The notes beneath the pieces were generated by a model. It saw only the letters and a program-made list of their open reading frames with translations, had not been told where the DNA came from and made no database searches. Both the position numbers and the translations under genes were made by a program. From the IMG/VR virus record IMGVR_UViG_3300031223_000015, positions 1 through 43,037 of that record: a DNA stretch of 43,037 nucleotides; one strand, 5' to 3'. Position 1 is the stretch's first letter. Every line of letters starts with the position of its first letter. Below are positions 12,377 to 43,037 of this stretch, piece after piece. This DNA comes from a virus.

Positions 12377-12381
12377 ACTCG

Positions 12382-12410
12382 TTTGCAGATATTAGTAATA
12401 CTGTTATAAT
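12382..12410 (+). promoter_or_regulatory. Late-type promoter before the portal cluster
   Basis: AGTAATACT (12394-12402) is followed by TG-T and a perfect -10 TATAAT (12405-12410). A partial -35 TTTGCA lies at 12382-12387, 17 bases upstream. This is the best match to the shared motif. The predicted start is near 12417, about 64 bases before the next gene. Confidence 0.7.
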
Positions 12411-12480
12411 CCAATCAGGGGAAGGAAGCACCGCACACTTTTCAGGGAGTTGGCGGTTGTCATTTAAAGAGGTAAATCCG

Positions 12481-12813
12481 ATGTTGCAGTCAATGATTGC
12501 GGCATTCACGCTGGTAGTTGCCATGTTTGCAATGTGGCACGCCATTATATTAGAGCCAATAGAAGCACGGTCTTTGGAAAGAATGGAGGTGCTTACAGAG
12601 CGCGTCCGTAGAGTCGAAGTTCGTCAAGATAAATCCAATGAATCGATTTTAAAAGAGATACGAAACATCAACCAATCACTTAGTCAGCTAGAGGTGTATC
12701 AAGCACGTCTAGGGGCTAATCTCGACAATCTTAATGGCAACATTACTCGTTTATCAAAACAGCTCGAATCCCAAAGTCTCCCCCGACCTCTATTGGAGGC
12801 CAGAAACCAGTGA
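12481..12813 (+). CDS. Membrane-anchored coiled-coil protein (110 aa)
   Basis: One N-terminal membrane helix (SMIAAFTLVVAMFAMWHAIIL) is followed by a long predicted coiled coil (ERMEVLTERVRRVEVRQDK; LDNLNGNITRLSKQLE). The topology resembles spanin-like or holin-associated proteins, yet it lies between the terminase and portal genes, so the role is open. ATG 12481 has GAGG 8 bases upstream; a TTG at 12457 after GGGAG is an alternative start. It overlaps the portal gene as GTGA. Confidence 0.65.
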   Translation: MLQSMIAAFTLVVAMFAMWHAIILEPIEARSLERMEVLTERVRRVEVRQDKSNESILKEIRNINQSLSQLEVYQARLGANLDNLNGNITRLSKQLESQSLPRPLLEARNQ

Positions 12814-14930: not shown

Positions 14931-15988
14931 TGGCTATTGAATTAGTAGATGCAGATGATGGCGGCGGACCAGCCGTTTCGACAGTGAATGAATTTGGCGG
15001 TGAGACTTTTGAAACACCGACAGTCGATAAGAAAGCTCGCGGTGATTTCGCTGAGCCGGTGATTGACGATACTGACGACGAACTGGTCGTTGAAGCCGTA
15101 GGCGACGAAACTGAGTCCAAGGATGAAACTGAAACCGAATCCAAGGATGATGAAGGAGAAGACGAAGGTGAGACTGAAACTGAGGAAGAGGACGAGGGTG
15201 AAGAGGACGAGGGTGAAGATGACGAGTCTAAGCCTACGGAGGAGGACGAGAGTATTCCGTCATCTGTTCCGCGTTCACGGCTTAAAAAAGAAGTGGAAAA
15301 GCGAAAGAAGTTACAAGCTAGACTTGACGCCCTTGAAGCCCAAAGTACCGAGGACGGAAATGATGACCCAGTTGAATCTGCCACTGGAATAGAGCTAGAC
15401 CCTGCCAGTTTCAAAAAGATGCAGGAGGCGATGATTGATGGTGAGTCTGATACGGCGATGGAGCTGTTTCAGGGGATGCTAAACAACGCGGTCAACGTGG
15501 CAACAACTACCGCTGAGAAGCGCACATCAGAAAAGGTCAAAGGCGAGATTGCCGAGCAAGCCCAGAACAAGGAATTAGCCGCTGTCTCTGCGACTGTCTA
15601 TGAGTCTTATCCTGAGTTTGAATATGGCGGCGACTATGCTGACGAGGATTTGATAACGGATGTTATCGATTTACGCGATTTTTACTTTAATAAAATGAGC
15701 GCGGGTGAGGCACTGCAAAAAGCGGCGGCTCAGGTAGCCTTAGAGAATGAGCTGGTTGATCGTAAACCTGCCGCTAAGTCCAAAGCGATTGATAAGCCGC
15801 CAGTTAAGGCCAAAGCGAAGAACGACATCGCCCGTAAGATGGAATTGGCGAGTAAGGAAAAGGGTAAGTTGAAAGGCAGTTCACTCAGGGATAAATCAGA
15901 GTCAATGGATATAAGTTCATTGACTGACGAGCAGTTTGGCAATATGTCACCACAGGCGAAAGCCAAAGCAAGGGGAGATTTCCTATAA
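14930..15988 (+). CDS. Probable scaffolding protein (352 aa)
   Basis: The protein has a very acidic, low-complexity segment (about residues 60-105, runs of E, D and T) followed by PRSRLKKEVEKRKKLQARLDA, a basic coiled coil, and a basic C-terminal region ending in SPQAKAKARGDFL. This layout, an acidic N-terminus and a VPRxRL-type coiled coil placed between portal and capsid genes, is characteristic of scaffolding proteins that shape the procapsid and then leave. Sequence identity of scaffolds is low, so the call rests on composition and position. The start overlaps the portal stop. Confidence 0.75.
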   Translation: MAIELVDADDGGGPAVSTVNEFGGETFETPTVDKKARGDFAEPVIDDTDDELVVEAVGDETESKDETETESKDDEGEDEGETETEEEDEGEEDEGEDDESKPTEEDESIPSSVPRSRLKKEVEKRKKLQARLDALEAQSTEDGNDDPVESATGIELDPASFKKMQEAMIDGESDTAMELFQGMLNNAVNVATTTAEKRTSEKVKGEIAEQAQNKELAAVSATVYESYPEFEYGGDYADEDLITDVIDLRDFYFNKMSAGEALQKAAAQVALENELVDRKPAAKSKAIDKPPVKAKAKNDIARKMELASKEKGKLKGSSLRDKSESMDISSLTDEQFGNMSPQAKAKARGDFL

Positions 15989-16290
15989 TGAACGAGCAGA
16001 AGATTGAGCAGAAGATTAAAGACAAGGGCTTGGACGCACCACGCGTCACGCCTACTAAGATAGATGACGTCATAGTTGGAGAGTCTTACTATGTTTTTCC
16101 TGGCACAACGGTGACTATCTGCTTGTTGAGATTGGAAAACGGCTTTACGGTCACGGGTGAGTCGGCATGTGCCAGCGTTGATAACTTCAACCAAGAAATT
16201 GGCCGCGATATTGCCCGAGTTAATGCGCGTGAGAAGATATGGGGGCTAGAAGGGTACGCACTCAAACAGCGACTCTTTGATGCCGCATAA
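15988..16290 (+). CDS. Gp49-like family protein, possible Acb2-type anti-CBASS sponge (100 aa)
   Basis: The protein contains DAPRVTPTKIDDVI, YYVFPGTTVTICLL, NGFTVTGESACAS and NAREKIWGLEGYALKQRL. These segments match the N4 gp49 / Sf6 gp66 phage family as I remember it. To my recollection this family includes Acb2, a hexameric protein that traps the cyclic nucleotide signals of CBASS immunity; that link needs checking. Acb2-type genes often sit among capsid genes, as here between scaffold and major capsid. It overlaps the scaffold stop (ATG at 15988) and is followed at once by a terminator, so it ends the portal transcript. Confidence 0.7.
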   Translation: MNEQKIEQKIKDKGLDAPRVTPTKIDDVIVGESYYVFPGTTVTICLLRLENGFTVTGESACASVDNFNQEIGRDIARVNAREKIWGLEGYALKQRLFDAA

Positions 16291-16295
16291 GCTAC

Positions 16296-16320
16296 AGCCC
16301 CTTTAACTAGGGGCTTTTTT
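16296..16320 (+). terminator. Rho-independent terminator
   Basis: AGCCCC (16296-16301) and GGGGCT (16310-16315) form a 6-bp stem with an 8-base loop, followed by a run of T to 16320. It ends the transcript of the terminase-portal-scaffold cluster just before the capsid promoter. Confidence 0.88.
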
Positions 16321-16333
16321 ATTAAGTCAACTG

Positions 16334-16362
16334 TTGACTAATATTAGTATTACTAATACACT
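16334..16362 (+). promoter_or_regulatory. Major capsid promoter with palindromic operator
   Basis: TTGACT (16334-16339) and TACACT (16357-16362) are -35 and -10 hexamers 17 bases apart, the best overall sigma-70 layout of the series. The spacer holds the palindrome TATTAGTATTACTAATA (16343-16359), whose AGTATTACT core has the same phasing to the -10 as at the other sites. A regulator bound there would sit on the promoter. Confidence 0.7.
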
Positions 16363-16371
16363 AAGGCCATT

Positions 16372-16386
16372 CGAGTAGTGAACTCG
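16372..16386 (+). other. Hairpin at the 5' end of the capsid transcript
   Basis: CGAGT and ACTCG pair around AGTGA, only a few bases after the predicted start near 16369. A second hairpin, GCAC-GAAA-GTGC with a GNRA tetraloop, lies at 16421-16432. Stem-loops at a 5' end commonly stabilise phage late mRNAs. The capsid leader is about 165 bases long and contains no gene. Confidence 0.55.
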
Positions 16387-16532
16387 TAAAAAACTCCTGA
16401 CATACACAGCTAAGTATGCCGCACGAAAGTGCTTCGTTAGACCCACGCACGGGACAAACACAAAGGCTAATTTTTAATAAATTTGCCCTAGTTTTTGTTT
16501 CGCAATGATTAGGGAATAACGGAGTAAACCAC

Positions 16533-17651
16533 ATGGCTGGTAATACAAATTTCGCAGCACTAGATGACGATGCTAAAAAAGTATGGTCACGAGACGTATG
16601 GCACCAAGCACGAGAGAAGATGTTTACATCACGCTTTATCGGCACGGGCCAGAATTCAATGATCCAACGCATCCCAGAGTTAACCAAATCAGAACGTGGT
16701 CTTGAAGCCATTGTTACTTTAGTACCTGACATCGAAGAAGATGGTGTGGTCGGTGATGATGTTCTTGTCGGAAACGAATCAGAAATGAAAGCGGTTCAGG
16801 ATAAGATCCAAATTGACCAGTTACGTAACGCGGTTAAGAACACTGGTAAACTGAATGACCAGGCAACTGTCGTTAACTTCCGCGACCAAGCGAAAGACCA
16901 ACTTGCCTACTGGCTTGCAGACCGTTGTGACCAACTTGCTTTTTTAACAATGGCTGGTTTGGCTTACACCAATAAAAACTCAGGTGGAACGCGTGGCGGT
17001 AACTTAGGTAACTTGTCATTTGCGGCTGATGTAACAGCACCCTCGTCTGAACGTTACCTTGTAGTTAAGGGTGATATACTTGAAGAAGGTTTGGGTACGT
17101 CTGATTTAACTGCAACAGACAAATTCGGTTATAGACACATTGTACGCCTACAGGCTTACGCTAAAACGAACTATGTTCGCGGCGTTCGTGGTAACGGCGG
17201 CTCAGAAGTCTATCACTTGTTCCTTCACCCGATGGCAATGGCCGAGTTAAAGCTCGACACTGACTTCATTGAGAACGCTCGTCAAGCTGGTGTTCGCGGT
17301 GATGGCAACACGTTATGGGAAGGTGGAGACACGTACAAAGTAGATGGCTTGTTCATCCACGAGTTTCGTCACGTACCGACTACACTGACTGCCACGACCA
17401 AATGGGGCGCAGGCACAGATGTTGAAGGTTGCCGTGCAATCCTAGCAGGCGCTCAAGCAATCGCGATGGTTGACTTGGACTCAGGCTCATGGGACGAACG
17501 TGATCACTTCGATTTCGGTAACAACTACGCAATCGCCTACGGCAAAATCTTCGGGTTCAAGAAAACTAAATACTTGTTCGCCAAGAATGCTGCGGATAAC
17601 ACCAATGTTAAGCAAGATTACGGTGTCATTATCGTCGACATGGCTATCTAA
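16533..17651 (+). CDS. Major capsid protein, N4-gp56 family (372 aa)
   Basis: This protein builds the head shell. The order RFIGTGQNSMIQRIPELTK, then VTLVPDIEEDGVVGDD, NESEMKA, IQIDQLRNAV and LADRCDQLAFLTMAGLAY matches the N4-gp56 family of capsid proteins with an HK97-type fold. The length (372) is in the normal range, with no protease domain or extra domain. It has its own promoter and a long leader, and is flanked by secondary structure on both sides, fitting its need for the highest expression. A GGAG site lies 9 bases before ATG 16533. Confidence 0.9.
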   Translation: MAGNTNFAALDDDAKKVWSRDVWHQAREKMFTSRFIGTGQNSMIQRIPELTKSERGLEAIVTLVPDIEEDGVVGDDVLVGNESEMKAVQDKIQIDQLRNAVKNTGKLNDQATVVNFRDQAKDQLAYWLADRCDQLAFLTMAGLAYTNKNSGGTRGGNLGNLSFAADVTAPSSERYLVVKGDILEEGLGTSDLTATDKFGYRHIVRLQAYAKTNYVRGVRGNGGSEVYHLFLHPMAMAELKLDTDFIENARQAGVRGDGNTLWEGGDTYKVDGLFIHEFRHVPTTLTATTKWGAGTDVEGCRAILAGAQAIAMVDLDSGSWDERDHFDFGNNYAIAYGKIFGFKKTKYLFAKNAADNTNVKQDYGVIIVDMAI

Positions 17652-29265: not shown

Positions 29266-29302
29266 GTAGTAGCGAACTAATAGGAGTGTTCCATGCTACT
29301 AC
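29266..29302 (+). other. Inverted repeat that would enclose the start codon of the nozzle gene
   Basis: GTAGTAGC (29266-29273) pairs with GCTACTAC (29295-29302). The loop holds AGGAG (29283-29287), and ATG 29293-29295 touches the right arm. Read-through RNA could fold this way and be poorly translated, whereas RNA begun near 29271 lacks most of the left arm. Confidence 0.55.
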
Positions 29303-30987
29303 TGATAACTGAATTTCGAGGGATGGCACCTCGTCTCAATCCAGAACAACTTGCCGATGGTTTAAGCGTTACGGCCACTAATGTTGATTTGTCTGAGACG
29401 CTTCAAGGATGGTGTTCCCCTCTTGATTTGTCTCAGGTAGTTCCAACAGCGGCTACGCACCTTTTCCACTATGCTGAAACCTACTGGTTCTCATGGGATA
29501 CACCAACCCAAGCGATTGAAGCTCCGCTGCTTAATGATCCTTTTAAGACGGTCATTATTACTGACGGTGACTTCCCCAAAGTGACTCGCCTCGATATTGC
29601 CACAGGCGGCTCAGTGTTTCCCAATATAGCCTACCGTTTGGGTCTACCCGAACCTGGCGTAGTAACTCACACTGTAGATAACAACGAATTGTATTCAGGT
29701 CCATCTAGCGGTGACTCAGATTACGACGGTACTGACCTTGATGACTTTACTACCAGTTACAAGATTACCTTTATTGATATATGGGGCAGGGAGAGCGTTG
29801 CTTCGTTTGCATCTGAGAATGCCACTATCAGGGAATACGAGGGTCAAATGGTGTTGAAAGTAACACTCACTTTTCCTGCGGTGCCTACAGGCTATCCACT
29901 GCTAGGTGATGGCAGTCAGTTTCGTATTTACAGATTGAACAACTCAAGCACAGGGCAAGGTATCTACCAGTTCCTCGCCGATGTAGATTCGGCAGAGAGT
30001 ACTTACGTTGACCGCCTTACATCTGCAGATTTGCAAGAAGGTCTGTTCGCTGATGACTGGCTGCCACCACCGGACGATAACCTAACTAATTTCCCCAACG
30101 GTCCTTTGCAACATATCTGTGTTCTTAGTGAGGCATTTCTGGGAGGACATAACGATAAGATGGTTTGTTTCTCTGAGCCAAGAGTAACCCACGCATGGCC
30201 TTCTGAGTACTACATGGTGTTCGCTGAGAAGATTATATGCACGGTTAACTACGGCGCTGACATGGTGGTACTCACCAACGACCACCCTTATATTGTCTCA
30301 GGCGTAAGCCCTGCGTCAATAAGCAGAGTTCGTCTAGCTAGCCCTGCACCGGCCATTAACTCCGAGGCAGTGGTTGAAGTTGCAGGCGCAGTTTTCTACG
30401 CTGGCAAACGAGGCCTGTATGTTATCGATGGCAACCAAGTGATCCTCGCCAGTGAAACGTTTTATGACGCTAAGCAGTGGCGAGCATTGCAACCCACAAC
30501 TATGCGATTTTTGAGACACCAAGACAACCTAGTCATTAAGCTGTTCGACGGTCGCATATTAATGTTTGACCCGACTAATCCGACAGGTGGTTTTACCAGC
30601 GTTGAATTAGACACTAAGGCACTCCACAATGACCCGCAATCAGAATCTTTAGTCTACTCGGATGCGTCCGGTAACTTGTTTGAATTTGATGGCGGTTCTG
30701 AAAACATGGCCGTCACGTTTGAGTCTAAGCACTATCGTTTTCACGACCCTAAGAGCATGTATGTGGGTAGGGTCAGGGCTAATAGCTACCCTGTTGATGT
30801 TGAGTTTGTCACTGAGCGTAGAAACGGTAACCAATACTCAACGGTCAGAACGGTCACTGATGATACGTTCTTCTATCTTGAAACTAAGAGTGAAGCTGTT
30901 GAGTTTTTCATGCGAGTTGCGGGTGATGTCGATATTCGAAGCATTGGATGGGCATCTTCCATACAGGAGTTAAACGCCGATGTCTAA
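29293..30987 (+). CDS. Tail nozzle / stabilisation protein (564 aa)
   Basis: The protein begins LLLITEFRGMAPRLNPEQLADGLSVTATNVDLSETLQGW, the standard opening of podovirus nozzle proteins (T7 gp12-like or P22 gp10-like), which assemble as a beta-propeller ring below the adaptor. Further family features are DGTDLDDFTTSYKITFIDIWGRES, SQFRIYRLNNS and GGHNDKMVCFSEP with WPSEY (the aligned segment around residue 290-315). The length is normal. The 3' end overlaps the fibre gene by 8 bases. Confidence 0.8.
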   Translation: MLLLITEFRGMAPRLNPEQLADGLSVTATNVDLSETLQGWCSPLDLSQVVPTAATHLFHYAETYWFSWDTPTQAIEAPLLNDPFKTVIITDGDFPKVTRLDIATGGSVFPNIAYRLGLPEPGVVTHTVDNNELYSGPSSGDSDYDGTDLDDFTTSYKITFIDIWGRESVASFASENATIREYEGQMVLKVTLTFPAVPTGYPLLGDGSQFRIYRLNNSSTGQGIYQFLADVDSAESTYVDRLTSADLQEGLFADDWLPPPDDNLTNFPNGPLQHICVLSEAFLGGHNDKMVCFSEPRVTHAWPSEYYMVFAEKIICTVNYGADMVVLTNDHPYIVSGVSPASISRVRLASPAPAINSEAVVEVAGAVFYAGKRGLYVIDGNQVILASETFYDAKQWRALQPTTMRFLRHQDNLVIKLFDGRILMFDPTNPTGGFTSVELDTKALHNDPQSESLVYSDASGNLFEFDGGSENMAVTFESKHYRFHDPKSMYVGRVRANSYPVDVEFVTERRNGNQYSTVRTVTDDTFFYLETKSEAVEFFMRVAGDVDIRSIGWASSIQELNADV

Positions 30988-33900
30988 GATTAAGCGCAGG
31001 CCAGCCATACCGAACATACCGGCTAAGTTGCCTCCTGAATTTCGTCCATTCTTTAATGCGGTTCGTGAGAACTTACAAGTTCTGGGCGGCGAGGGTCGTG
31101 GTAACCCGTTAGATGAAGCGGTGACTAAACGTGACTTAGAGAATGGCACTTTTAGCACGCTTATTAACCGTCAGGTAAAGACAGGCGGCTCGGGAACACA
31201 GCCCTCAGAATTACCTATCCCACCAACAAGTTTTAGTATTAGTGCGGATACCAAGTCGATACGCATAGCTTGGGACAGACCGATTTACGTGGGTCATAAG
31301 CACACGAACGTTTACATCGTTTCGCACCCAAGGGGCACAACTGATAATGCTCGCGTTGTTCCTTTCGCTGAGGCTGAACTTTATATCAGTGCTTCTGGTC
31401 AGTCGGCAGTTATCTTAGCCCAAGAGTACCAGTGGGTTACTGTATTTATTGCACATGAAAACGGTGATGGTGTAGTCGGGGATGAAGCAGGGCCATTGCA
31501 GGCACAAGCTTTGCAGGGCGATATTGTTGACGCTACGGTGCCGACAGGTGTTGAGCTGGAAGTGGTTGAGGCTGGTGTGGTTATCACCTGGGATCTTCCG
31601 ATTTACGCGGGACATGCACGTTCTAAAATTTACGTGGATTTTGTGGGTATTGATAGTGATGGCGATCCACTACGCCTCGGTAATTACGGGGCGCGCATAT
31701 TATTCTGGGAGGGCAAAACCAATGGTACTAGGCTCGCACTACCCGAGGGTACGGGGGCTTATTTTTGGGTTGTGCATGAGAATGAGTATGATGTTGAATC
31801 ACCGCCGCACGATATATTGGGCATTTATGGTTACGTCGAACGCTACGCCGAAACACCGACTAAGCCTGTCGGGGTGGTTCTTACTTCTGTCGCTGGCGGT
31901 ATTGTTGTTCGTTGGTCTCCTACGTCTTATGTTGGGCATCGTTTTGCGAACATTTATGTCCAAACGGATTTACCTAATCCCGATGGTTCTGCTGGCGCTC
32001 CACCTAATCTAAACCAAGCTACCATGTTAGCTCAGACGGTTACGGGTAATTTAACAACGGTTTATTTGCAGCCCGAAATGGGTGCTTACATCTGGGTATC
32101 CAATGAGAATATATTGGGTGAGGAAAGTGCGGTACATGCCGTAGCTGGTTCTTATGGTGTGTCGTTACTAGGCGTCGGTACATTGCTTGACCAGATACGT
32201 GAGGGCATCGATAAGACGCTCTTCGATACAGATCTGTTTGATTTAATTACGGAGGCTGAGGGCTTTGGGTTTTCCAATCAGAATTCACGTATTACAGACT
32301 CGCTTGAGCGTGCAAATGCGGCAGATGCTAAAGGCCAAGCGGCCATTGATGATATTGACAACAGGGTAAACGGGGCGCTTGGAGCGCTGGACTTTAACAT
32401 CAATGGTATCGCAACAGACTTATCAATTAACTATTATACATCGGTGGATGCAGACTCAGCGATGCAACAGGAAACACAAACGCAAATAACGGCGCTCAAT
32501 ATTGGAGACTACACAAAGCTAGCATTCATAGAGCAGGAGTATCGCACTGAGGTAGACAGTGACAGTGCGATGGCTACTGCGGTCCAAGTGCTTCGTGCCG
32601 AAGTGACAACCGCTGAATACGAATCACAGGCGAACATATCTAGTAATTACTCTACAACAGTTGAGGCCAACGAGGCAACGGCAGGGCTAATAGAAACGTT
32701 TAACAGCGAGGTTCTACAGGCAAACTATAAGTCTAGTGCCGATATTACGGTAGACCATTACACTAAGGCTGGGGCCAACGCGGCAACGGCGGGGTTGATA
32801 AACACCTTTAACAGCGAGGTTCTACAAGCAGGCTATAAAACCAGTGCCGATATAGAATCGGAGTATTACACGAGCGCACAGGCTAACGCTGCAATATCAG
32901 GGTCTCTGGAAACGTTCTCCGCTAAGATATTTGATGCTGATGGTTCTACGGTTAAAGAAGCGTTTATCAGTGAGGTGAGAATATCATCGACTGACTTAAA
33001 CGTCGCCGTTGCGGCAGGCATCGATTCCTATGAGTTGGGCTACGGCGATGATACGTATTCGCTGGACAACATAACGCAAATAGCAGTAGATAACGAGGGT
33101 ATATACGCCGCACAATGGGGCGTTCAGCTATCAGTAGGTGACCTCACAAGAGGGGTTGGTTTTCTCGCGACGAACGCCGATGAAGGTATCGACGACTCGC
33201 TGTTCTATATTAATGCTCAAAACTTTGTCGTGGGTGATCCCGATAGCACAGACACGTTTTACCCGTTCACTGTAACTGATGGCGTGACCTATATTTCAGA
33301 TGCGGTTATCAGGGACGCTCGCATCGAAGAATTGGTCGTCGATACCGTGACTACCAGTAGAGATTTGGTGATAACGGACTCTGCTATTATCGGCGGCGTT
33401 TTATCGGCGGCCTCGATTAACGTGGACAGCGATGGTACGTGGAACGAATCCTATAATTTCAGTGTAAACGCGGCGGGTAATTTGCGCGCACGGGACGGTA
33501 ACTTCGCAGGGCAAATTTCAAGTTCTGACATTGTGGGTGGCACCTTTAGGACTTCTTCTTCGTTCGCCCCCGATAGTACGTCTCGCGTTGTTATTTCTGC
33601 ATTAGGTACTTATAAAATGTGGTGTGGTACGGGCGCACAGACAGATGATAATGCTTTATTTTATCTAAAGTCCAACGGCGACGGTGCGTTTAATGGTTCA
33701 CTTAATGTTAGGAACTTAGAAGGTGATGTTTACGATGCGTCTCTAATCTCTATTCCCAGCAAGACTTTTATCGGAAATGACGCGTCGCTGGTTGTGTACG
33801 AGGCAATTTTAGATGGTAATAGTGACTTTGACAGGGCGTTTTACACTAACGTTACTATTGGTCACTCTAACGGTGGCGGTAATAATAGTAATATAACCGT

Positions 33901-34144
33901 ATCTTTATGGATCGACGGTGTTCAGCGAGCTTCAATGCTCAGTAATCCCGAAACTTTATATGAGAACGAGGAAGCTTTATCAATAGGGTGCAACATACCC
34001 CAAGGTTCAGCCGACGTTACTGTAGAGTTGAAAGCAACAACAGATAGCAACAGTTACGGCTACGTTAATAGGCAGTTCATTCATGCCTCTGTGTTTAAAG
34101 TGGGCAATCAGTTTATGTCTGTTTCAGTTGACCCTAATGGTTAA
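30980..34144 (+). CDS. Tail fibre / host-specificity protein with three FN3-like repeats (1054 aa)
   Basis: Residues about 85-390 form three repeats of roughly 100 residues, each with a W-x-x-P-x-Y-x-GH-x4-IY pattern (WDRPIYVGH, WDLPIYAGH, WSPTSYVGH), which look like fibronectin-type domains of lambda gpJ-like proteins. Residues 470-670 hold shorter tandem repeats of about 35 residues (DNA copies near 32674-32745 and 32779-32850), like the DUF1983 region of such proteins. The C-terminal part (GIYAAQWGVQLSVGD; ITDSAIIGGVLSAASI) resembles a tip domain that builds trimers. It probably forms the central fibre that contacts the host. Confidence 0.75.
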   Translation: MSKIKRRPAIPNIPAKLPPEFRPFFNAVRENLQVLGGEGRGNPLDEAVTKRDLENGTFSTLINRQVKTGGSGTQPSELPIPPTSFSISADTKSIRIAWDRPIYVGHKHTNVYIVSHPRGTTDNARVVPFAEAELYISASGQSAVILAQEYQWVTVFIAHENGDGVVGDEAGPLQAQALQGDIVDATVPTGVELEVVEAGVVITWDLPIYAGHARSKIYVDFVGIDSDGDPLRLGNYGARILFWEGKTNGTRLALPEGTGAYFWVVHENEYDVESPPHDILGIYGYVERYAETPTKPVGVVLTSVAGGIVVRWSPTSYVGHRFANIYVQTDLPNPDGSAGAPPNLNQATMLAQTVTGNLTTVYLQPEMGAYIWVSNENILGEESAVHAVAGSYGVSLLGVGTLLDQIREGIDKTLFDTDLFDLITEAEGFGFSNQNSRITDSLERANAADAKGQAAIDDIDNRVNGALGALDFNINGIATDLSINYYTSVDADSAMQQETQTQITALNIGDYTKLAFIEQEYRTEVDSDSAMATAVQVLRAEVTTAEYESQANISSNYSTTVEANEATAGLIETFNSEVLQANYKSSADITVDHYTKAGANAATAGLINTFNSEVLQAGYKTSADIESEYYTSAQANAAISGSLETFSAKIFDADGSTVKEAFISEVRISSTDLNVAVAAGIDSYELGYGDDTYSLDNITQIAVDNEGIYAAQWGVQLSVGDLTRGVGFLATNADEGIDDSLFYINAQNFVVGDPDSTDTFYPFTVTDGVTYISDAVIRDARIEELVVDTVTTSRDLVITDSAIIGGVLSAASINVDSDGTWNESYNFSVNAAGNLRARDGNFAGQISSSDIVGGTFRTSSSFAPDSTSRVVISALGTYKMWCGTGAQTDDNALFYLKSNGDGAFNGSLNVRNLEGDVYDASLISIPSKTFIGNDASLVVYEAILDGNSDFDRAFYTNVTIGHSNGGGNNSNITVSLWIDGVQRASMLSNPETLYENEEALSIGCNIPQGSADVTVELKATTDSNSYGYVNRQFIHASVFKVGNQFMSVSVDPNG

Positions 34145-34222: not shown

Positions 34223-37102
34223 ATGAAAAAGAAACTCGTTCTACTCACATTCATGGCGTTCGCTAGTTTATACGTTCATGCAAATCCACTAGGTTATGAC
34301 GTTGTTTATGTGCGTTATCCCAATCACACTATCGAAGATAGATTTGTAGGTCTACCTCAAGGTGAGAGTGCTTACAGTATAACAGCCGGTGCTGACTTAA
34401 TGTTACTAAAAGCGGATAGCTCGGAGGTAGTATTAGTTGATTGTACAGACTGCTCAGTGATGGACCCGATAATTTCTTTTGACGGAAATACAGTTTATTA
34501 CTCTTTAATAGTTGATATTTGGACTGGAACGCAAGGTAACAATACGCCAAAACCTAGAGCAACAGCAGGTTGGATATATAAAATTCATTTAGACGATCCT
34601 AACTATACACCAATCAGACTAACTTTTGATGACGGGTTTGACAGTATGTTGTATGCGGGTAACAACAACCCCGAAGATGGGCAAGGAGAAAAACGGTTTA
34701 TTAGAGATATGACTCCTATTCCTTTGGCAGATGGTAGATTGCTTTTAACGTCTAACCGTTCAGCAACAACGGCTTTAGATCCGTTTACCGAAGCTATTGT
34801 GAGCAGTAGTGTTCAGCATCTTTATACTATGGACGACCACGAAGGGGAATTAAATACTAGTGAGTTATCTAACTTACGTCAATTAGAAACTGGCTCATTG
34901 CACATGATACAGCATCCAATACAACTTAAAGATGGACGTATTCTATTTACCACTTGGCAAGACGTTGGACACAAGTTTCACTACGCTATGAGTCCCTTAT
35001 TTACCATCAACCCTGATGGTACTAACATGCAACAGTTCACAGAACCGCATGACAAAAACAAGTACTTAGACCACTTTATTACTCAACTTGTCGATGAAAG
35101 TGTTGTTGCGGGATACTACTACCCTTCATTTGACTACGGTTACGGTATTTTGCACCGTATGCCAGTAGAGGCAGCGTATGGTAGAAATTGGCTAAAAGGC
35201 AGCGTAGTCGGAAGTAATCGTAAGTTTGACAGAAAAGGTACGGTTAACATGACTCCTCACAGCACACCCGGAGACATTCCCGCACCTAATAGAAGTGGTA
35301 AATATTCCATGCCCTCAGTTGGAGCAAAAGGTTCAATGCTTGTTGCTTACTCTAAAGGCTATGTTAATCACTTTTCCGCAGTATGCAGAAACAATAGTGC
35401 CAGTCCCTCTCAAGATATGAACACACACCCAATAGACGATAACGGGTTTAAGTGTGAAGAATTACGTTCTGGTATTTACATGATACCTAATGCAACAACT
35501 AACATTATTTACGATCCAGACACAGAGTTGGTTATGGTTAAAGACAGTCCTGACTATAACGAGATTTGGCCCAGAGCTGTTCTATCTTACCAAGAGCTTA
35601 TGGGTGTAGAGAAACCAACTATCATTCCAACAGACCGTTCTCACACTAATAACGCGACTGCTTATACTGGTACTTCATCAATGTATAACCGAGAGTCTAT
35701 GCCAATTGCTCGATTCGGTGAGTTAGACCCTTTTAACAGTGGATCTATTAAACGTGAGTTGCACGACGGTAACTGGAAAATACAGGGGACAGACGCAGGG
35801 GTTTACACTAATGCGGATATTAAATACGTTAGAATTTTAGGGACACCAGCACTACCTTATAACAATCCTATTGAAAAGTTTAACGGAGATACAGGGTCAG
35901 CAGATCGAGCCGCACATGCTGAAGTAACAGAATACGCTCTTGCAAGTAACTTAGACAGTATTGTTGCTAAGTACGGTTCGTTTCACGGAGAAAGGTGGGA
36001 AATACTAGGTGAATTTCCATTAAGTCACACGGACACAATAGACGACCAAGGCAATCCAGATACTTCTTGGATTGCTAAAATAGGTGCTGATACACCTCAT
36101 ATGATACAAACCTTAGATATTAATGGCATGACACTTAATAGTGAAATGACATGGAGAGGACTAAAAGCAGGAGAAGCAAGAACAGACTGTGGAGGTTGCC
36201 ATATACACTCAGGACCAGAGTTAGATATTGCTACTACTCAAGCAGGAAAAGGAGTTGCAATAACCGGAGTTGCAGGTTTACTTGACTCTGACTTTAGAAT
36301 TGCAAACGGTATATGGAACTTAACCACTGGCAGTATTCCTGTACTTACTGAAAACGGTACTGAATTTATAGCACAAGGTACATTAGGCGCAGAGTGGAAA
36401 AGAGACGTTTACCCTGTAATGCAGAGTAGCTGTATTTCTTGCCACGGAGATGGAGGACAGACTCCTGACTTTACTGGTACACCTAAAGAAGTTTATCTAA
36501 GAATAACTAAAGAAAGCGGGTATATGAGCCCACAAAGAAGTAAGTACATTCGCTCACCACAAGCTAGACAAAGCTTATTAGCATGGATTGTTTATGAGGA
36601 AAGACTAGACGGACGACTTAACTCTACTAGAGACGATGATGTTGATTACCCTGATAGCCATCCTGCATTAAACCTTCCTGATGCAGATAAACGCAAGATT
36701 GCACGATGGATAGATATGGGTGGACCTGTTGATTTCCCAGTAACTAATGGGTTTGGTTACACAGAGGACAGCCAATTACCCATTGTTACGCAAGTGTTTA
36801 TTAAAAATAAACCAGAACAGTATGCGAATCATTTTAGCGTTGGTATGTACGATCAAATGTCAGGACTTGATTGGACTACGTTAGCGGTTAGTTATTACAC
36901 CGTGGCTAACACCGCAACTGTTGTACCTATAACAATAGACCAAGCATCTAAAGTCGATGATAACGATGTTCTTCATGTTGATGTTGATTCATTAATTTTT
37001 GCTAATGGCACTGAGTACGTTTTAAAAGTCACGATTGAAGATTTAGTGGGAAATAAAAACGTCTATACCGAGAGATTAACCAAAGGTGCGGTGATTCTTT
37101 AA
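34223..37102 (+). CDS. Exported dihaem cytochrome c, HzsA-related (959 aa)
   Basis: The protein begins with a Sec signal peptide (MKKKLVLLTFMAFASLYVHA, likely cut after A20), so it acts outside the cytoplasm. Residues 25-450 are rich in repeated beta segments of the kind PLADGRLLLTSNRS and QLKDGRILFTTWQD, as in a beta-propeller. Two c-type haem motifs follow: CGGCH at 656-660 and CISCH at 737-741. The end has DADKRKIARWIDMGG, common near haems in this group. The order propeller, haem domain, haem domain is that of the hydrazine synthase alpha subunit and of HzsA-related proteins of many marine bacteria. No partner subunits are present, so the reaction is unknown. Arginine is coded by AGA in about half of the cases, unlike the phage core. 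Confidence 0.78.
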   Translation: MKKKLVLLTFMAFASLYVHANPLGYDVVYVRYPNHTIEDRFVGLPQGESAYSITAGADLMLLKADSSEVVLVDCTDCSVMDPIISFDGNTVYYSLIVDIWTGTQGNNTPKPRATAGWIYKIHLDDPNYTPIRLTFDDGFDSMLYAGNNNPEDGQGEKRFIRDMTPIPLADGRLLLTSNRSATTALDPFTEAIVSSSVQHLYTMDDHEGELNTSELSNLRQLETGSLHMIQHPIQLKDGRILFTTWQDVGHKFHYAMSPLFTINPDGTNMQQFTEPHDKNKYLDHFITQLVDESVVAGYYYPSFDYGYGILHRMPVEAAYGRNWLKGSVVGSNRKFDRKGTVNMTPHSTPGDIPAPNRSGKYSMPSVGAKGSMLVAYSKGYVNHFSAVCRNNSASPSQDMNTHPIDDNGFKCEELRSGIYMIPNATTNIIYDPDTELVMVKDSPDYNEIWPRAVLSYQELMGVEKPTIIPTDRSHTNNATAYTGTSSMYNRESMPIARFGELDPFNSGSIKRELHDGNWKIQGTDAGVYTNADIKYVRILGTPALPYNNPIEKFNGDTGSADRAAHAEVTEYALASNLDSIVAKYGSFHGERWEILGEFPLSHTDTIDDQGNPDTSWIAKIGADTPHMIQTLDINGMTLNSEMTWRGLKAGEARTDCGGCHIHSGPELDIATTQAGKGVAITGVAGLLDSDFRIANGIWNLTTGSIPVLTENGTEFIAQGTLGAEWKRDVYPVMQSSCISCHGDGGQTPDFTGTPKEVYLRITKESGYMSPQRSKYIRSPQARQSLLAWIVYEERLDGRLNSTRDDDVDYPDSHPALNLPDADKRKIARWIDMGGPVDFPVTNGFGYTEDSQLPIVTQVFIKNKPEQYANHFSVGMYDQMSGLDWTTLAVSYYTVANTATVVPITIDQASKVDDNDVLHVDVDSLIFANGTEYVLKVTIEDLVGNKNVYTERLTKGAVIL

Positions 37103-37132: not shown

Positions 37133-38992
37133 ATGGCTGACTACTTAAAATTCAACGGTGTAGATAATTACTTGTCGTTAGGTACAAACATAGAACCTGA
37201 GAATTACACTACCTCTCTACTAGAAATAGATTTAATGGCTGAAAGCGATGACGGAAGATTATTAGCTAATGATGGTAATAATAGACCTCAACTTACTCTT
37301 AGTGACGCTCCAGTCGGAGGTAAAAAATCCTTACAATTTTATAGGTTTGACGATGACGGTTCAATATCGGATATCGCTTACGATTTAAATGAAAGGTTTA
37401 CAATTACTATAGAAACTACGGAGACCGAAATTATAGTAACTACTCCTCATACAGTAGTTACAGAAAATAGAGAAAGCTCCGCATCACACGGCTTTAATCT
37501 AATAGGCGTAGCTAGGGGAGAATCTAACTCATTTTGTGAAATGAGAATTTACCGACTGAAATTTACAGGCGATGGAACTCTGGTACATGACTATAATGCG
37601 GCAACATCTTCTAACACTGATACTGTTTTTACTGATGATGCAGGTAGTAATGATGCGGTAATGAATAACTTTATTGTTCCTGATGCTTGGGTTGGCTCTG
37701 CACCTGCTGATACAACTGCACCTGTAATCACAGTAGCAGAAGGTAACTTAACAATAACTGAAGGTGATGCAGTTCCTACGTTTACTGCAACTACAGATGA
37801 CGGAACAGCTATTGTTGAAACAGGTAGCGCAAACAATGGTGTTGTCGGTGTTTATCCTTATACTTTTAACTCAACCGACTCAGCAGGAAATGTTGCAACT
37901 GAAGTTACTAGAACAATCACAGTAGAAGCTGATTCTGCTTCTAGCGACAGAAAACTAACTTTTGATGGTATTGATAACTATTTTACTTTTACACAAGTTG
38001 TCCTTCGCGAAAATGATAATTATACCGTAAAACTTGTTGCAAGCTATCCTGATAACTTAGTTGATGAGGAACAATATTTACTATCTTACGATGACGCTGG
38101 CTGGCCTTACAAACAAAAAATATCTTTTAAAGTTGATGGCACTTTAACTATTTCTTTAGGTAGATTTAGTGGAAGTATTATTATGGAACCTTCAACAGCT
38201 TTTGTTGCTGGTGAAGACGTTACTATTTTATTTGAACACGTTGCTAACACTCTTGATTTCACTGTTACAGTAAATGGTGAAGTGTTTAATCACAGCGAAC
38301 CTGCTGGCGGTGATGGAGATTCGCAGATAATTTTTGGACTTTTTGGTATTTACTACGACAAAATTCAGTATCCGTATAAAGGTGATCTTAAAGAATTATT
38401 TCTTTCAAAAAACAGTGTAACAGTTCTTGATTTTGATATCGAAAACGGTACGGGAAACACTATTACTAACAAGGGTAGTGGAAGTGATGCAACTTTACAG
38501 AATTTTGATGGTAATCAGTGGTCAGGTGGAAGTGTAGACACTACCGCACCAGTAATCACAGTAGCAGAAGGCAATTTAACAATAACTGAAGGTGATGAAG
38601 TACCTTCATTTACTTCTAGTACAGATGATGGTTCTACAGTTGTTGAAACAGGTAATGCAGATACTAATGTTCCTGCTGTTTACCCTTATACGTTTAACGC
38701 TACGGATGATACAGGTAACGAAGCAGAAGAAGTTACTCGAACAATAACGGTCGAAGAATTTGTGTCTGCTGATAATTCAACTTTAAACATGTCAATTTCA
38801 GGCGTACCAAACGGAACATACTTAACAAGGGTTATCCGAGTATCGACTTCTGCAGTTGTATTTTCAGGTAATGTTGATTGGGTAAACGGTGCAGCTAGTC
38901 AATTAATTACTGACGTAGTTAGTAACTCCGATGTTGAGTATTACGTTATTGGTACTAGTAACGGTGGGTTAAACAGAGGAGCTACTTCATGA
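37133..38992 (+). CDS. Fibre-like protein with two LamG-like and two Ig-like domains (619 aa)
   Basis: The protein is built as two similar halves. Residues 1-185 and about 270-455 each look like a concanavalin/LamG-type jelly roll (opening LKFNGVDNYLSLG and LTFDGIDNYFTF). Each is followed by an Ig-like domain of the DUF5011 type starting DTTAPVITVAEGNLTITEGD. The Ig copies are near identical in DNA (about 37715-37790 and 38539-38610), so the unit was duplicated recently. A C-terminal beta domain closes it. Such modules bind sugars or surface proteins, fitting a phage adhesion or decoration protein. It has no signal peptide. The ATG at 37133 has AGGA upstream. Confidence 0.7.
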   Translation: MADYLKFNGVDNYLSLGTNIEPENYTTSLLEIDLMAESDDGRLLANDGNNRPQLTLSDAPVGGKKSLQFYRFDDDGSISDIAYDLNERFTITIETTETEIIVTTPHTVVTENRESSASHGFNLIGVARGESNSFCEMRIYRLKFTGDGTLVHDYNAATSSNTDTVFTDDAGSNDAVMNNFIVPDAWVGSAPADTTAPVITVAEGNLTITEGDAVPTFTATTDDGTAIVETGSANNGVVGVYPYTFNSTDSAGNVATEVTRTITVEADSASSDRKLTFDGIDNYFTFTQVVLRENDNYTVKLVASYPDNLVDEEQYLLSYDDAGWPYKQKISFKVDGTLTISLGRFSGSIIMEPSTAFVAGEDVTILFEHVANTLDFTVTVNGEVFNHSEPAGGDGDSQIIFGLFGIYYDKIQYPYKGDLKELFLSKNSVTVLDFDIENGTGNTITNKGSGSDATLQNFDGNQWSGGSVDTTAPVITVAEGNLTITEGDEVPSFTSSTDDGSTVVETGNADTNVPAVYPYTFNATDDTGNEAEEVTRTITVEEFVSADNSTLNMSISGVPNGTYLTRVIRVSTSAVVFSGNVDWVNGAASQLITDVVSNSDVEYYVIGTSNGGLNRGATS

Positions 38993-41622
38993 TACTAGGT
39001 CAATGGGCTGCTTTAGGTCAATGGGGAGAAGCCCCTCCAATTGAAGGAGGACTGCATCTTGATATTGCAACTGAAAAATGGGTATCACTGCTGCCGTATA
39101 CTTTTCCTGAATCTGGAATTGTAACTGTAGCTTTAGATTTTAACGCCCCTAATTCAATCACAGAAAACCAACAACTGTTTAAGCTGAAGAGAGCACCCCT
39201 TGAAATCAGTGCAAGGTTTGAAGCTTCGGGGGCTGTTTATGTTTATGTTGCTACAAATACTGAAGCTAGAGAACTAAGTGGAGGGACAGTAACGCAGGGT
39301 AGTCGTTATATACTTAGTGTAAGTCTTAATATTACCAGTGGCGGTATTGTAGTTGCTCTTGATTCTTCTACTACTGATTCTTATACAATCAACTCGCCAA
39401 CTGATTTTAGTGAAGCTATTACAACTGAGGGTATTAATACGTCTTTAGGTAATGCTGATAACATGACATTTACTGATTCAGTTATTCGCACGTTTAACAT
39501 TAACGACGAAAGAACGTATGACGCTGATGATGACAGTAGCACTGGTGAACTTCTAGTAGACACAACAAGCGGCTCAAACGGCACTGTAGTAACAAATAGC
39601 TCTAATACGGCACCAGAAGTTACAGTAACAGCGGATAAAGCTACTTACGCGGCTGGTGAGACAATCACCTTTAGCGCAGACGCTACCGATATAAATGGCG
39701 ATACGCTAACTTACAGTTGGATAACAGGTGAGACGACGCAAAGCATCACTGTTATTGCTCCATCTAACAGTACGAATAGCCAGGTGACTAGAAGCTGCAT
39801 TGTTAACGACGGGAATGTGAACAGCGCAAGCTCGTCCGAAACCGTTGATGTTTTAGCGCAAGAAAATAGAGCGCCTACACTGAGCGTTACGTCAAACAAA
39901 TCAACTTACGCTGCGGGTGAAAATATTACTTTCACTGCAACGGCCAGCGACGCAGATGGTGACGCTTTAACTTACTTATGGTCAAGCGGTGAGACTACGC
40001 AAACAATTACAGTAACCGCACCAACAAGCGGCACATCGTCAACAGTGACGCGCAGTTGTGTTGCCAATGACGGTCAGGCAGATAGTGATATTGAGTTTGA
40101 AACGGTTAACGTAAATGCTGAAGTGGATACAACTGCGCCAGTTATTACGGTCAGTGGCCCTGAGTCACAATCTATTGCTTACAACGGCTCAGTACCTACG
40201 TTTACATCAAGTACTGACGATGGGTCTACTGTTGTTGTAGGTGGCGATATTATTGATAATCAGACCGCAGGTACCTACACCAAAACCTATAATTCAACTG
40301 ATGGCGAGAATGAGGCTATTCAGGTAACGCGAACCGTTATTGTAAATGAAGAGGTGGATACGACTGCACCTGTTATTACGGTCAGTGGTCCTGAGTCCCA
40401 AACGATTGTGTACGGTTCGGCTGTCCCTACGTTTAGTAGCAGCACCGATGACGGTTCAGCTATTACAATTGGTGGCGATACGATTGACAATCAGACCGCA
40501 GGTACCTACACCAAGACCTACGATTCAACTGATGGCACTAATTCCGCTACCCAAGTCACGCGAACCGTTATCGTAAGTGAAGATGTTACCGCGCCTGTCA
40601 TTACGGTTAGTGGTCCATCTTTACAAACTATTGCTTATAATGGCACTGTCCCGACCTTTAGTGCTACTACTGATGACGGGTCTGCGGTGGTTGTCGGTGG
40701 TGATACGATTGATAATCAAACGGCCGGCACCTACACCAAAACCTATAATGCAACTGATGGCACTAATGCCGCTACCCAAGTCACGCGAAGTGTGACAGTG
40801 GAGGAAGAGGCAGATACTACCGCGCCTGTCATTACGGTAACGCCAGGTAGTCAAACGATTGCCTATGGCGGGATTACACCTGTGTTTACTGCTACGGCCA
40901 ATGATGGTTCTACTGTTGTTGTCGGTGGCAATACACTTGATGTGTATTCTGCAGGACTCTACACGCTGACGTTTAACGCGACTGATGCGGCAGGGAACGT
41001 GGCTACTCAGGTGACAAGAACCGTTACTGTCCAAGAAGAGATTGATACAACTGCGCCAATAATTTCAGTAAGTGGATCCACTTCAACTACTATTGCTTAC
41101 GATGGCACTGTTCCTCTGTTTACCGCAAGTGCCCAAGGTTCAGTCGTTAATATCACTGGTGATGTTGTGGATAACCAGACCGCAGGGGCTTACGTTATTC
41201 GGTTTAACTCAACTGACATAGCGGGGAACCTGGCTACCCAAGTCACTCGAACGGTTATTGTCGAGGAAGAGGTTGTTGTTGTTACGATACCGCCGACTGC
41301 ACCGACTGATCCTAGCCAAGACATTACCGATACCATGTGGCAACACACGGATAACTTCTATGCACACACGCCTAGCATTACCGATTTCTCAGATGCGGAG
41401 TACATCTTGTCCGATAGGCGTGACTCCATAGAGTTTTACGCGACACTTGGGAACGGTATCTCAGAGCAAGATGGCAATCTTGTTGTCCATATCGATGACT
41501 CAAATATAACGTTTCAGGGTGCTCATTACCATCAGCTCGTTCTCTTTGACGCCACAGGCAATAAGTTAGCGCCTGAGTTCTTAAAGAAAGTGAACGTTAA
41601 ACCCATTCTATTTAAACCCTAA
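38989..41622 (+). CDS. Large repeat fibre protein with Ig-like domain array (877 aa)
   Basis: Residues 1-205 resemble a LamG-like domain. Next come two PKD/cadherin-like repeats (VTVTADKATYAAGETITF; SVTSNKSTYAAGENITF, each ending RSC-x-VNDG or RSCVANDG), then about five DUF5011-type Ig repeats of 70-78 residues (TAPVITVSGPESQ, with DNQTAGTYTKTY), and a C-terminal domain of about 100 residues (WQHTDNFYAHTPSITDFSD) that may be the tip or attachment domain. The repeats are tandem in DNA from about 40130 to 41260, with periods of 225-234 bases. It starts in an ATGA overlap with the previous gene. The first 200 residues use AGA-rich codons; the repeats look like the phage core. Confidence 0.72.
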   Translation: MILGQWAALGQWGEAPPIEGGLHLDIATEKWVSLLPYTFPESGIVTVALDFNAPNSITENQQLFKLKRAPLEISARFEASGAVYVYVATNTEARELSGGTVTQGSRYILSVSLNITSGGIVVALDSSTTDSYTINSPTDFSEAITTEGINTSLGNADNMTFTDSVIRTFNINDERTYDADDDSSTGELLVDTTSGSNGTVVTNSSNTAPEVTVTADKATYAAGETITFSADATDINGDTLTYSWITGETTQSITVIAPSNSTNSQVTRSCIVNDGNVNSASSSETVDVLAQENRAPTLSVTSNKSTYAAGENITFTATASDADGDALTYLWSSGETTQTITVTAPTSGTSSTVTRSCVANDGQADSDIEFETVNVNAEVDTTAPVITVSGPESQSIAYNGSVPTFTSSTDDGSTVVVGGDIIDNQTAGTYTKTYNSTDGENEAIQVTRTVIVNEEVDTTAPVITVSGPESQTIVYGSAVPTFSSSTDDGSAITIGGDTIDNQTAGTYTKTYDSTDGTNSATQVTRTVIVSEDVTAPVITVSGPSLQTIAYNGTVPTFSATTDDGSAVVVGGDTIDNQTAGTYTKTYNATDGTNAATQVTRSVTVEEEADTTAPVITVTPGSQTIAYGGITPVFTATANDGSTVVVGGNTLDVYSAGLYTLTFNATDAAGNVATQVTRTVTVQEEIDTTAPIISVSGSTSTTIAYDGTVPLFTASAQGSVVNITGDVVDNQTAGAYVIRFNSTDIAGNLATQVTRTVIVEEEVVVVTIPPTAPTDPSQDITDTMWQHTDNFYAHTPSITDFSDAEYILSDRRDSIEFYATLGNGISEQDGNLVVHIDDSNITFQGAHYHQLVLFDATGNKLAPEFLKKVNVKPILFKP
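40130..41262 (+). repeat. Tandem Ig-domain repeats in the fibre gene
   Basis: Copies of about 225-234 bases begin near 40138, 40369, 40594 and 40828, with a more diverged copy near 41050. Shared DNA includes the stretch encoding DNQTAGTYTKTY. Such arrays can gain or lose copies by recombination. Confidence 0.75.
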
Positions 41623-41877: not shown

Positions 41878-42059
41878 AATCATTAATGATCAAGTTATTC
41901 GCACCCATCCTATTAGACATGTTTGTCGCTATTGCACGTAAGCTTGCAACGCGCTCAGACAACCACATTGACGATGACGTGGTTGATGCCATCGAGCGCA
42001 TGATGGGTGACAAACGTTTTGCGGGTAAAGTTAAGAACGTTATCGCTGGGATTAAGTGA
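41874..42059 (+). CDS. Small amphipathic protein, possible holin-like (61 aa)
   Basis: The N-terminus MKSLMIKLFAPILLDMFVAIARKLATR is hydrophobic or amphipathic and could insert into a membrane. The rest is charged and helical. It sits directly before the endolysin and overlaps it as GTGA, the usual place for a holin, but one short weak segment is less than most holins have. The role is inferred only from position. Confidence 0.5.
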   Translation: MKSLMIKLFAPILLDMFVAIARKLATRSDNHIDDDVVDAIERMMGDKRFAGKVKNVIAGIK

Positions 42060-42415
42060 AGTACGATAACTTTAGTGACGAACGATTGGCTTGCTCTTGT
42101 TGTGGACGGGCCAATCCCAACTGGGCATTTCATCTATTGATGTGCGATGTTGTGGCGTTTCGTTATTTTTTAGACAAGCCTGTTTATGTGGGGTCGGCTT
42201 ATCGTTGTCCCGATCATCCTATTGAAGCTAATAAGGAACAAGCGGGTGAACATAGCAGAGCAGCCATTGACTTGTCAGTTGATAGAAGTGACGGTCTTGA
42301 GTGTCTAAAGTTTTTTCTTAATTTGGGATACGTGGGCGTGGGTGTTTCGCAAAAAGGCTCAAAGCGTTTCATCCATATAGACCGCAGGGTACAGCCTGCT
42401 TTGTGGTCGTATTAA
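42056..42415 (+). CDS. Endolysin, peptidase M15 family (119 aa)
   Basis: The zinc-binding pattern of M15A D-Ala-D-Ala carboxypeptidase-like enzymes is complete: H66-x5-D72 in GEHSRAAIDLSV and H107 in RFIHIDRR. The surrounding motifs (LACSCCGRANPNWAF, VGSAYRCPDHP) are standard for the family. It cuts peptides of the cell wall at lysis. It is short and lacks a cell-wall-binding domain or signal peptide, so it needs a holin to reach the wall. The start is GTG 42056, overlapping the previous stop. It is the last phage gene in the window. Confidence 0.85.
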   Translation: MKYDNFSDERLACSCCGRANPNWAFHLLMCDVVAFRYFLDKPVYVGSAYRCPDHPIEANKEQAGEHSRAAIDLSVDRSDGLECLKFFLNLGYVGVGVSQKGSKRFIHIDRRVQPALWSY

Positions 42416-42500: not shown

Positions 42501-42576
42501 TGGTGGACGCTACTGGGCTTGAACCAGTGACCCTTGCCTTGTAAGGGCAATGCTCTCCCAACTGAGCTAAGCGTCC
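42501..42576 (-). tRNA. tRNA-Val(UAC), copy 1
   Basis: The 76-base gene has an encoded CCA. The acceptor arm pairs GGACGCT with AGCGTCC, the anticodon loop is CTTACAA (anticodon TAC), and the T loop is TTCAAGC. The anticodon stem is TTGCC/GGCAA. Both arms are intact, so it should be functional. Its 3' end faces the phage genes, the usual direction for an integration target. Confidence 0.95.
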
Positions 42577-42833
42577 AAAGTCTTAATACTTGGTTGCACT
42601 ATAGTTGCACCGCCAGAAAAAAGTGAGGTACGACCACTGGCTCTTTTCTGTGCTTTCTCTGCCAGGCTAAAACAAGTGTTTCTCACCTCGGTTGCACTAA
42701 AGTTGCACTTCCACGTACATTTTAATCAATAATTATATACTTAGTGCAACCAACCCTCTAAATTTCACACTCGTAGAGCTGTTATTTATTAAGTAGTAAT
42801 CGCTTATAAGTCACGCCATATAAGGGCTAGAAG
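42577..42833 (-). other. Spacer between the two tRNA-Val genes
   Basis: These 257 bases hold five of the GTTGCAC-type copies and an AT-rich stretch near 42720-42745. No gene is seen. The spacer is long for tandem tRNA genes, which suggests inserted or phage-derived DNA. Confidence 0.5.
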
Positions 42834-42909
42834 TGGTGGACGCTACTGGGCTTGAACCAGTGACCCTCGCCTTGTAAGGGCGATGCTCTCCCAACTGAGC
42901 TAAGCGTCC
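42834..42909 (-). tRNA. tRNA-Val(UAC), copy 2
   Basis: This gene is identical to copy 1 except for one base pair of the anticodon stem (TCGCC/GGCGA here, a C-G in place of the T-A pair). Both sides of the pair are changed, so pairing is kept. It has an encoded CCA, and the promoter at 42958-42985 lies directly upstream. Confidence 0.95.
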
Positions 42910-42957
42910 ATCTTGTCTAACAATCTTACTGATACGTTCCTCGGTAAGTGGACGCGT

Positions 42958-42985
42958 ATTATAGAGTTGAGACCGCATCTGTCAA
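42958..42985 (-). promoter_or_regulatory. Strong sigma-70 promoter of the tRNA-Val genes
   Basis: On the minus strand TTGACA (complement of 42980-42985) and TATAAT (complement of 42958-42963) are perfect hexamers with a 16-base spacer. They are followed by a GC-rich discriminator (ACGCG), typical of stable-RNA promoters under stringent control. This looks like host DNA. Confidence 0.85.
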
Positions 42986-43037
42986 CCGCATTTTAAAAAA
43001 AAAGCCCTGTTAGCTCAAAAATCGGCCAAACAATCAG

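Follow-up and report, generated by a model that had tools for sequence, protein, structure and literature searches.

The window, a 43,037-base IMG/VR virus record, carries a single open reading frame at positions 34223-37102 (+) that begins with ATG and codes for an HzsA-like exported dihaem protein of 959 amino acids. Its N-terminus, MKKKLVLLTFMAFASLYVHA ahead of NP, reads as a Sec-type signal peptide (residues 1-20; 34223-34282, +), and Ala20 is kept in phage relatives. The signal peptide is followed by a beta-propeller domain matching TolB and the N-terminal domain of HzsA (about residues 24-460; 34292-35602, +), and then by a Pfam match to the HZS_alpha middle domain (residues 611-660; 36053-36202, +), which ends in the first haem-binding motif. 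This motif comprises C656-G-G-C659-H660 and an invariant His662, giving CGGCHxH in the alignment (36188-36208, +). A second motif, CISCH (residues 737-741; 36431-36445, +), is located inside a cytochrome c domain according to Pfam and the alignment, and the predicted structure ends in a beta-rich C-terminal domain (about residues 850-955; 36770-37087, +). The two CxxCH motifs, which start at residues 656 and 737 (nucleotides 36188 and 36431), both recur in each of the 37 chromosomal homologues in the main block of alignment A3, and therefore their presence is not due to chance.

The Pfam models HZS_alpha (PF18582; E 1.6e-8, 35.4 bits, above the gathering cutoff of 26.6) and Cytochrome_CBB3 (E 4.9e-6, 27.2 bits, cutoff 27) both match the protein, and no match was found among PHROGs or defence-system models. 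An earlier sequence-only reading of this DNA had described a 959-residue protein with a signal peptide, a propeller-like N-terminus and CxxCH motifs at 656 and 737, and the reading frame, motif positions and predicted structure all agree with that description. It had also placed the gene under a phage-type promoter, which is not supported: a consensus scan of the 78-base gap before the gene revealed no sigma-70-like promoter.

The surrounding genes are those of a tailed phage. Packaging and head genes (TerS, TerL, portal and major head protein; 10149-17651, +) are followed by a gene for an internal virion protein (phrog_511; 29293-30987, +), and a tail-tip/tail-fibre gene (Phage_Tail_Tip, phrog_496; 30980-34144, +) lies directly upstream of the HzsA-like gene. 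Downstream are genes for a 619-residue protein with Ig-like stretches and a GC3 of 0.21 (37133-38992, +), which is probably a tail-associated adhesin, an 877-residue Ig-repeat protein whose C-terminus has a homologue among the genes of a related phage (E 2e-17; 38989-41622, +), and an M15 peptidase endolysin (42056-42415, +). Scans for viral relatives of the internal virion protein and of the 619-residue neighbor found none. A small gene to the right of the HzsA-like gene matches two related phages. The early region of the window also codes for a sliding-clamp-like (DNA polymerase III beta) protein (2448-3065) and an AP2-domain protein (4276-4701).

Host DNA, which marks the right prophage boundary, extends from the 3' end of a tRNA-Val gene to the end of the window (42831-43037). 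This flank is 97% identical to Glaciecola pallidula DSM 14239 (G001), its best match and also the genome that carries L029, one of the chromosomal homologues described below. With phage genes on both sides of the HzsA-like gene, and host DNA beginning only at 42831, 5.7 kb downstream of it, the window represents the right-hand portion of a prophage in a Glaciecola-like host, with the cargo well within its limits. Thus, the proposal that the gene is phage-borne is borne out by the tail-tip/fibre gene upstream and by the Ig-type and endolysin genes downstream. An assembly join with host DNA, which the sequence-only reading had named as a finding that would count against it, is rejected given the matches to related-phage genes downstream and the restriction of host similarity to the sequence from 42831 onward. 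Two copies of tRNA-Val(tac) are present at the prophage end (42501-42576, -, and 42834-42909), and host similarity starts at the second. The first copy may belong to the phage or to a tandem array.

Relation to hydrazine synthase alpha

An AlphaFold2 model of the protein built on a 49-sequence alignment has a pLDDT of 81.9 and a pTM of 0.88. Its top Foldseek matches are the two HzsA chains of 5c2v (E 1.6e-28 and 8.9e-28, 930-953 columns), and the next match is TolB, which corresponds to the propeller alone. The alignment of the model with 5c2v_A covers model residues 24-850, with 605 residues aligned, a Z of 32.2 and an rmsd of 3.6 (VIA-align). TolB matches the propeller, at about residues 18-458, with a Z of 25.8. 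The same chain is the best solved structure by sequence (E 2e-6; family profile 1e-24). In a viral structure library no full-length match was found, the first match having a TM of 0.19-0.20, although this is not proof of absence. Judging from the predicted fold and the profile matches, the protein is an exported dihaem c-type protein related to HzsA. This relation had been proposed from the sequence together with a profile search and a structural alignment as ways to check it, and both now point to HzsA, with Pfam HZS_alpha above its cutoff and an HzsA-type fold recovered, the lack of which was the other finding named as counting against the reading.

HzsA of Kuenenia stuttgartiensis (PDB 5c2v) is 15-20% identical to the phage protein and shares its domain order of propeller, haem-bearing middle domain and C-terminal cytochrome c domain. 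Unlike HzsA, the phage protein has an extra C-terminal domain and no partner subunits in the window. The distal ligand of HzsA haem alphaII, His772 (numbered by an offset of 27 inferred from His587), aligns with His813 (36659-36661, +), which is conserved in the phage and exopolysaccharide (EPS)-locus copies of the window clade.

At haem alphaI of HzsA, the CxxCH residue His587 binds zinc and Tyr591 ligates the iron (PMC12607021). The HzsA sequence CSGCHYGSY is replaced in the phage protein by CGGCHxH, so the proximal tyrosine is lost: the position four after the CxxCH histidine is Gly664 in an ungapped alignment, and is Gly, Gln, Ile or other residues across 49 aligned homologues. CGGCHxH itself is present in 49 of 49 aligned sequences, with His662 invariant, as are His231, His284, Tyr299 and Tyr300. 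The zinc of HzsA is shared by Cys303, which is not kept in all anammox bacteria (PMC12758564). In a weak profile alignment (10.9 bits) His276 of the phage protein falls at this cysteine, and thus a metal site built with His276 could exist, since histidine could also bind metal. His276 and His346 are invariant in the clade of the window copy (10 rows), whereas other homologues mostly have Phe or Met.

Despite the overall fold and the HZS_alpha domain, it is extremely improbable that the protein is a true hydrazine synthase subunit that makes hydrazine, and we reject this identity. It scores 42.8 bits against the cutoff of 800 for the NCBIfam hydrazine_alpha equivalog, and glycine occupies the proximal-tyrosine site. 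Moreover, neither HzsB nor HzsC is encoded in the window, where the only other CxxCH in a long reading frame belongs to the terminase. The sequence-only reading had likewise considered hydrazine synthesis unlikely without the other subunits.

HZS_alpha proteins are widespread outside anammox bacteria, where they lack key residues and have no demonstrated function (PMC12758564). These chromosomal proteins of non-anammox bacteria share the domain order of the phage protein, to which they are about 27-57% identical, and most carry CGGCHxH and two haem motifs. Our residue findings agree with that study and extend the HZS_alpha family to phages.

Accessory cargo in this and other phages

Related phages (TerL 62-67% identical; several records of 55-63 kb) do not carry the HzsA-like gene. 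Seven of them have a homologue of the tail-fibre gene, and there it is followed by different tail or adhesin genes. A TerL identical to that of the window is also present in two further metagenome contigs, L114 and L123, which are too short to reach the cargo. The GC content of the HzsA-like gene is 0.406 and its GC3 is 0.311, compared with 0.47-0.50 and 0.45-0.53 for the head and tail genes of the window and 0.405 and 0.297 for the Glaciecola homologue. Because the gene is flanked by phage genes, is missing from related phages, and has a composition unlike that of the phage but equal to that of the Glaciecola homologue, it qualifies as accessory cargo, carried by a temperate tailed phage whose host is a Glaciecola-like bacterium.

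The family was found in viral contigs with the motif pattern DCGGCHxH and three alignment scans. Single-sequence scans with the phage protein returned nothing from viral or genome collections, and exact 8-residue patterns were too strict. Counting re-seen contigs once, homologues are present in eight other distinct virus contigs: L018 (also L014), L019 (L005), L020 (L013), L004 (L106 and L111), L012 (L105), L107 (L110), L108 (L113) and L109 (L112). A further contig, L021, is a partial near-copy of L018. No relative was found among named phage genomes and plasmids, and no report of phage-borne HZS_alpha proteins in the open papers searched; neither result is proof of absence.

The homologues in L018, L019 and L020 are about 44% identical to the window protein and come after TerL. 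They belong to a recurrent post-TerL cassette (L018:2493-10128, L019:4334-12008, L020:2550-7200) that codes for a small secreted protein (HdeA family in L018), the HzsA-like protein, a secreted protein of ~138 residues and a protein of ~330 residues. In L018 and L019, the cassette adds an Ig-type protein of ~977 residues, and then the portal and other head genes follow. Among the other contigs, L107 has the HzsA-like gene after two tail-fibre genes, L004 has phage-like early genes around it, and L108 has a DnaB-type helicase gene nearby. The L109 contig stops before the haem motifs. The phage copy in L012 (3450-6032) has lost the second CxxCH and kept CGGCHxH, hinting that the first haem may be the essential one. 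Directly after the HzsA-like gene in the same contig (L105:10525-12264) is a gene for a sulfatase with a signal peptide (Pfam E 3e-49), possibly another polysaccharide-modifying cargo.

The position of the gene bears on whether its product might be a virion component that is associated with the tail and acts on the coat at adsorption. Both in the window and in L107, a tail-fibre gene immediately precedes it, and it is next to Ig-type genes. However, L018 and L019 have the gene outside the tail module, in the stretch from TerL to portal, and the protein begins with a Sec-type signal peptide as read from its first 20 residues. Haem of the c type is attached in the periplasm, whereas phage tails assemble in the cytoplasm, which makes a virion role very unlikely. 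A tail-associated depolymerase, which would be assembled in the cytoplasm and would lack a signal peptide, does not fit the signal peptide read at residues 1-20.

In the tree, the window copy clusters with L018-L020 and with three chromosomal copies from Gammaproteobacteria. The window and L018-L020 form one side of a branch whose support of 85/93 is not conclusive. L004 and L012 are placed near Acidobacteriota copies and L107 and L109 near Planctomycetota copies, although L108 and L109 have long branches that make their places unsure. Forcing seven phage rows into one clade lowers the log-likelihood by 641 and is rejected (p-AU 1.5e-42), and therefore phages took up the HzsA-like family at least twice. 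This recurrence in other phages, with more than one gain, had escaped the sequence-only reading.

Another view is that the phage recently captured the gene from a host and carries it as a passenger that does nothing for the phage. Its composition, equal to that of the Glaciecola homologue, and its absence from related phages fit such an origin. However, the frame is uninterrupted and every motif residue is present, the copies in L018-L020 have diverged but are still intact, and the family entered phages on more than one occasion. Thus, we regard a mere passenger as fairly improbable.

Chromosomal kin and a possible role in exopolysaccharide modification

The closest chromosomal copies, all full length, are L029 from Glaciecola pallidula (57% identical), L022 (56%) and L023 (51%), and the hosts of these nearest relatives also include Endozoicomonas sp. 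G2_1 and a Moraxellaceae MAG. They are located inside XrtA-type EPS biosynthesis clusters, whereas the window copy is in a phage and not in such a cluster. The Glaciecola copy also differs from the phage copy in having an N-terminal extension with a lipobox-like sequence. Neighbors of the closest copies include exosortase A, an XrtA polysaccharide deacetylase, a TIGR03087 glycosyltransferase, FemAB and an O-ligase-like gene, although the O-ligase matches fall below the NCBIfam cutoff. In L022, the HzsA-like gene is between phosphomannomutase-like and O-ligase-like genes, and upstream are exosortase A (301 bits, cutoff 208), the deacetylase (415, cutoff 276) and the glycosyltransferase (483, cutoff 317). 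L029 has a FemAB XrtA-associated protein (262 bits, cutoff 260) and an O-ligase-like neighbor, and L023 lies in the same kind of cluster.

Exosortase-A EPS clusters near an O-ligase-like gene thus accompany three of three closest bacterial copies. In a second, separate lineage, two of four copies (L036 and L053) are in XrtA clusters, no XrtA genes were seen near L138, which is close to L036, and the upstream flank of L070 is cut. In Planctomycetota, Acidobacteriota and Lysobacterales, whose homologues are more distant, no XrtA linkage was seen. XrtA EPS clusters make up a very small part of a genome, and so, by rough inference, chance alone would be unlikely to place five of about seven gammaproteobacterial copies in them. 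Homologues are rare: among genomes of the order of Glaciecola 3 of 395 have one, and among those of the order of Hahella 3 of 391. One chromosomal homologue (L025:929-4444) ends in a Gly-rich, hydrophobic and basic tail that looks like a GlyGly-CTERM sorting signal, and it may therefore be displayed at the surface.

Of the functions put forward in the sequence-only reading, modification of the cell surface agrees best with the data, given that the nearest chromosomal homologues are encoded in EPS clusters and that a sequenced member of the host genus carries one of them in its own cluster. Since unrelated phages also carry versions of the gene, a role at the surface coat is favored over one in hydrazine synthesis. 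We tentatively propose, with slightly less than even confidence, that the protein is exported, carries two haems and modifies the XrtA-type EPS of the host, either as a redox enzyme or as an accessory factor. In this proposal, the propeller would position a polymer or precursor, and the c-type haem of the middle domain, which resembles HzsA haem alphaI and has the invariant extra histidine of CGGCHxH, would do the chemistry. The second haem, in the C-terminal cytochrome c domain, would serve as an electron relay. Protein made late in infection or in the lysogen might then change the coat, which could favor phage release or block rival phages. We infer the haem loading, cell location, polysaccharide substrate and chemistry of the protein, as well as its benefit to the phage. 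The linkage to EPS clusters is not universal, and these clusters hold many activities.

The main rival reading is an enzyme for electron transfer or detoxification, with peroxide, NO or hydroxylamine as its substrate, which would benefit the infected cell or lysogen and have no link to polysaccharides. In its favor, haem alphaI of HzsA is proposed to act on hydroxylamine and ammonium (PMC12607021), periplasmic sulfur-redox genes are known as phage cargo, among them soxD with its cytochrome c motifs (PMC8190135), and most relatives keep both haems. However, no respiratory or nitrogen gene was seen adjoining the gene in the window, the other phages or the EPS-locus relatives, and the tyrosine haem ligand of HzsA is absent. 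We therefore give this function an appreciable but minor likelihood.

The HzsA fold family, phage cargo, and cargo with haem motifs are each already known, the last from phage auxiliary redox genes such as soxD, which are also host-derived redox cargo in phages (PMC8190135). The soxD protein family and pathway are unrelated to those of the HzsA-like phage protein. Matches to HZS_alpha in viromes should be treated with caution and not be read as anammox genes. Repeated carriage by phages, together with kin in EPS clusters, one of them in the very genus of the host, gives the HZS_alpha family a first concrete and testable role. If EPS modification is indeed that role, it would add a redox mode to the ways in which phages alter bacterial surfaces. 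A broader and more doubtful proposal is that phages have repeatedly recruited a hitherto unrecognised class of haem-c enzymes that combine an HzsA-like body with the active-site motif CGGCHxH and chemically alter exosortase-type EPS. Such a class, if real, would be the redox counterpart of phage depolymerases and of conversion genes that modify the O antigen.
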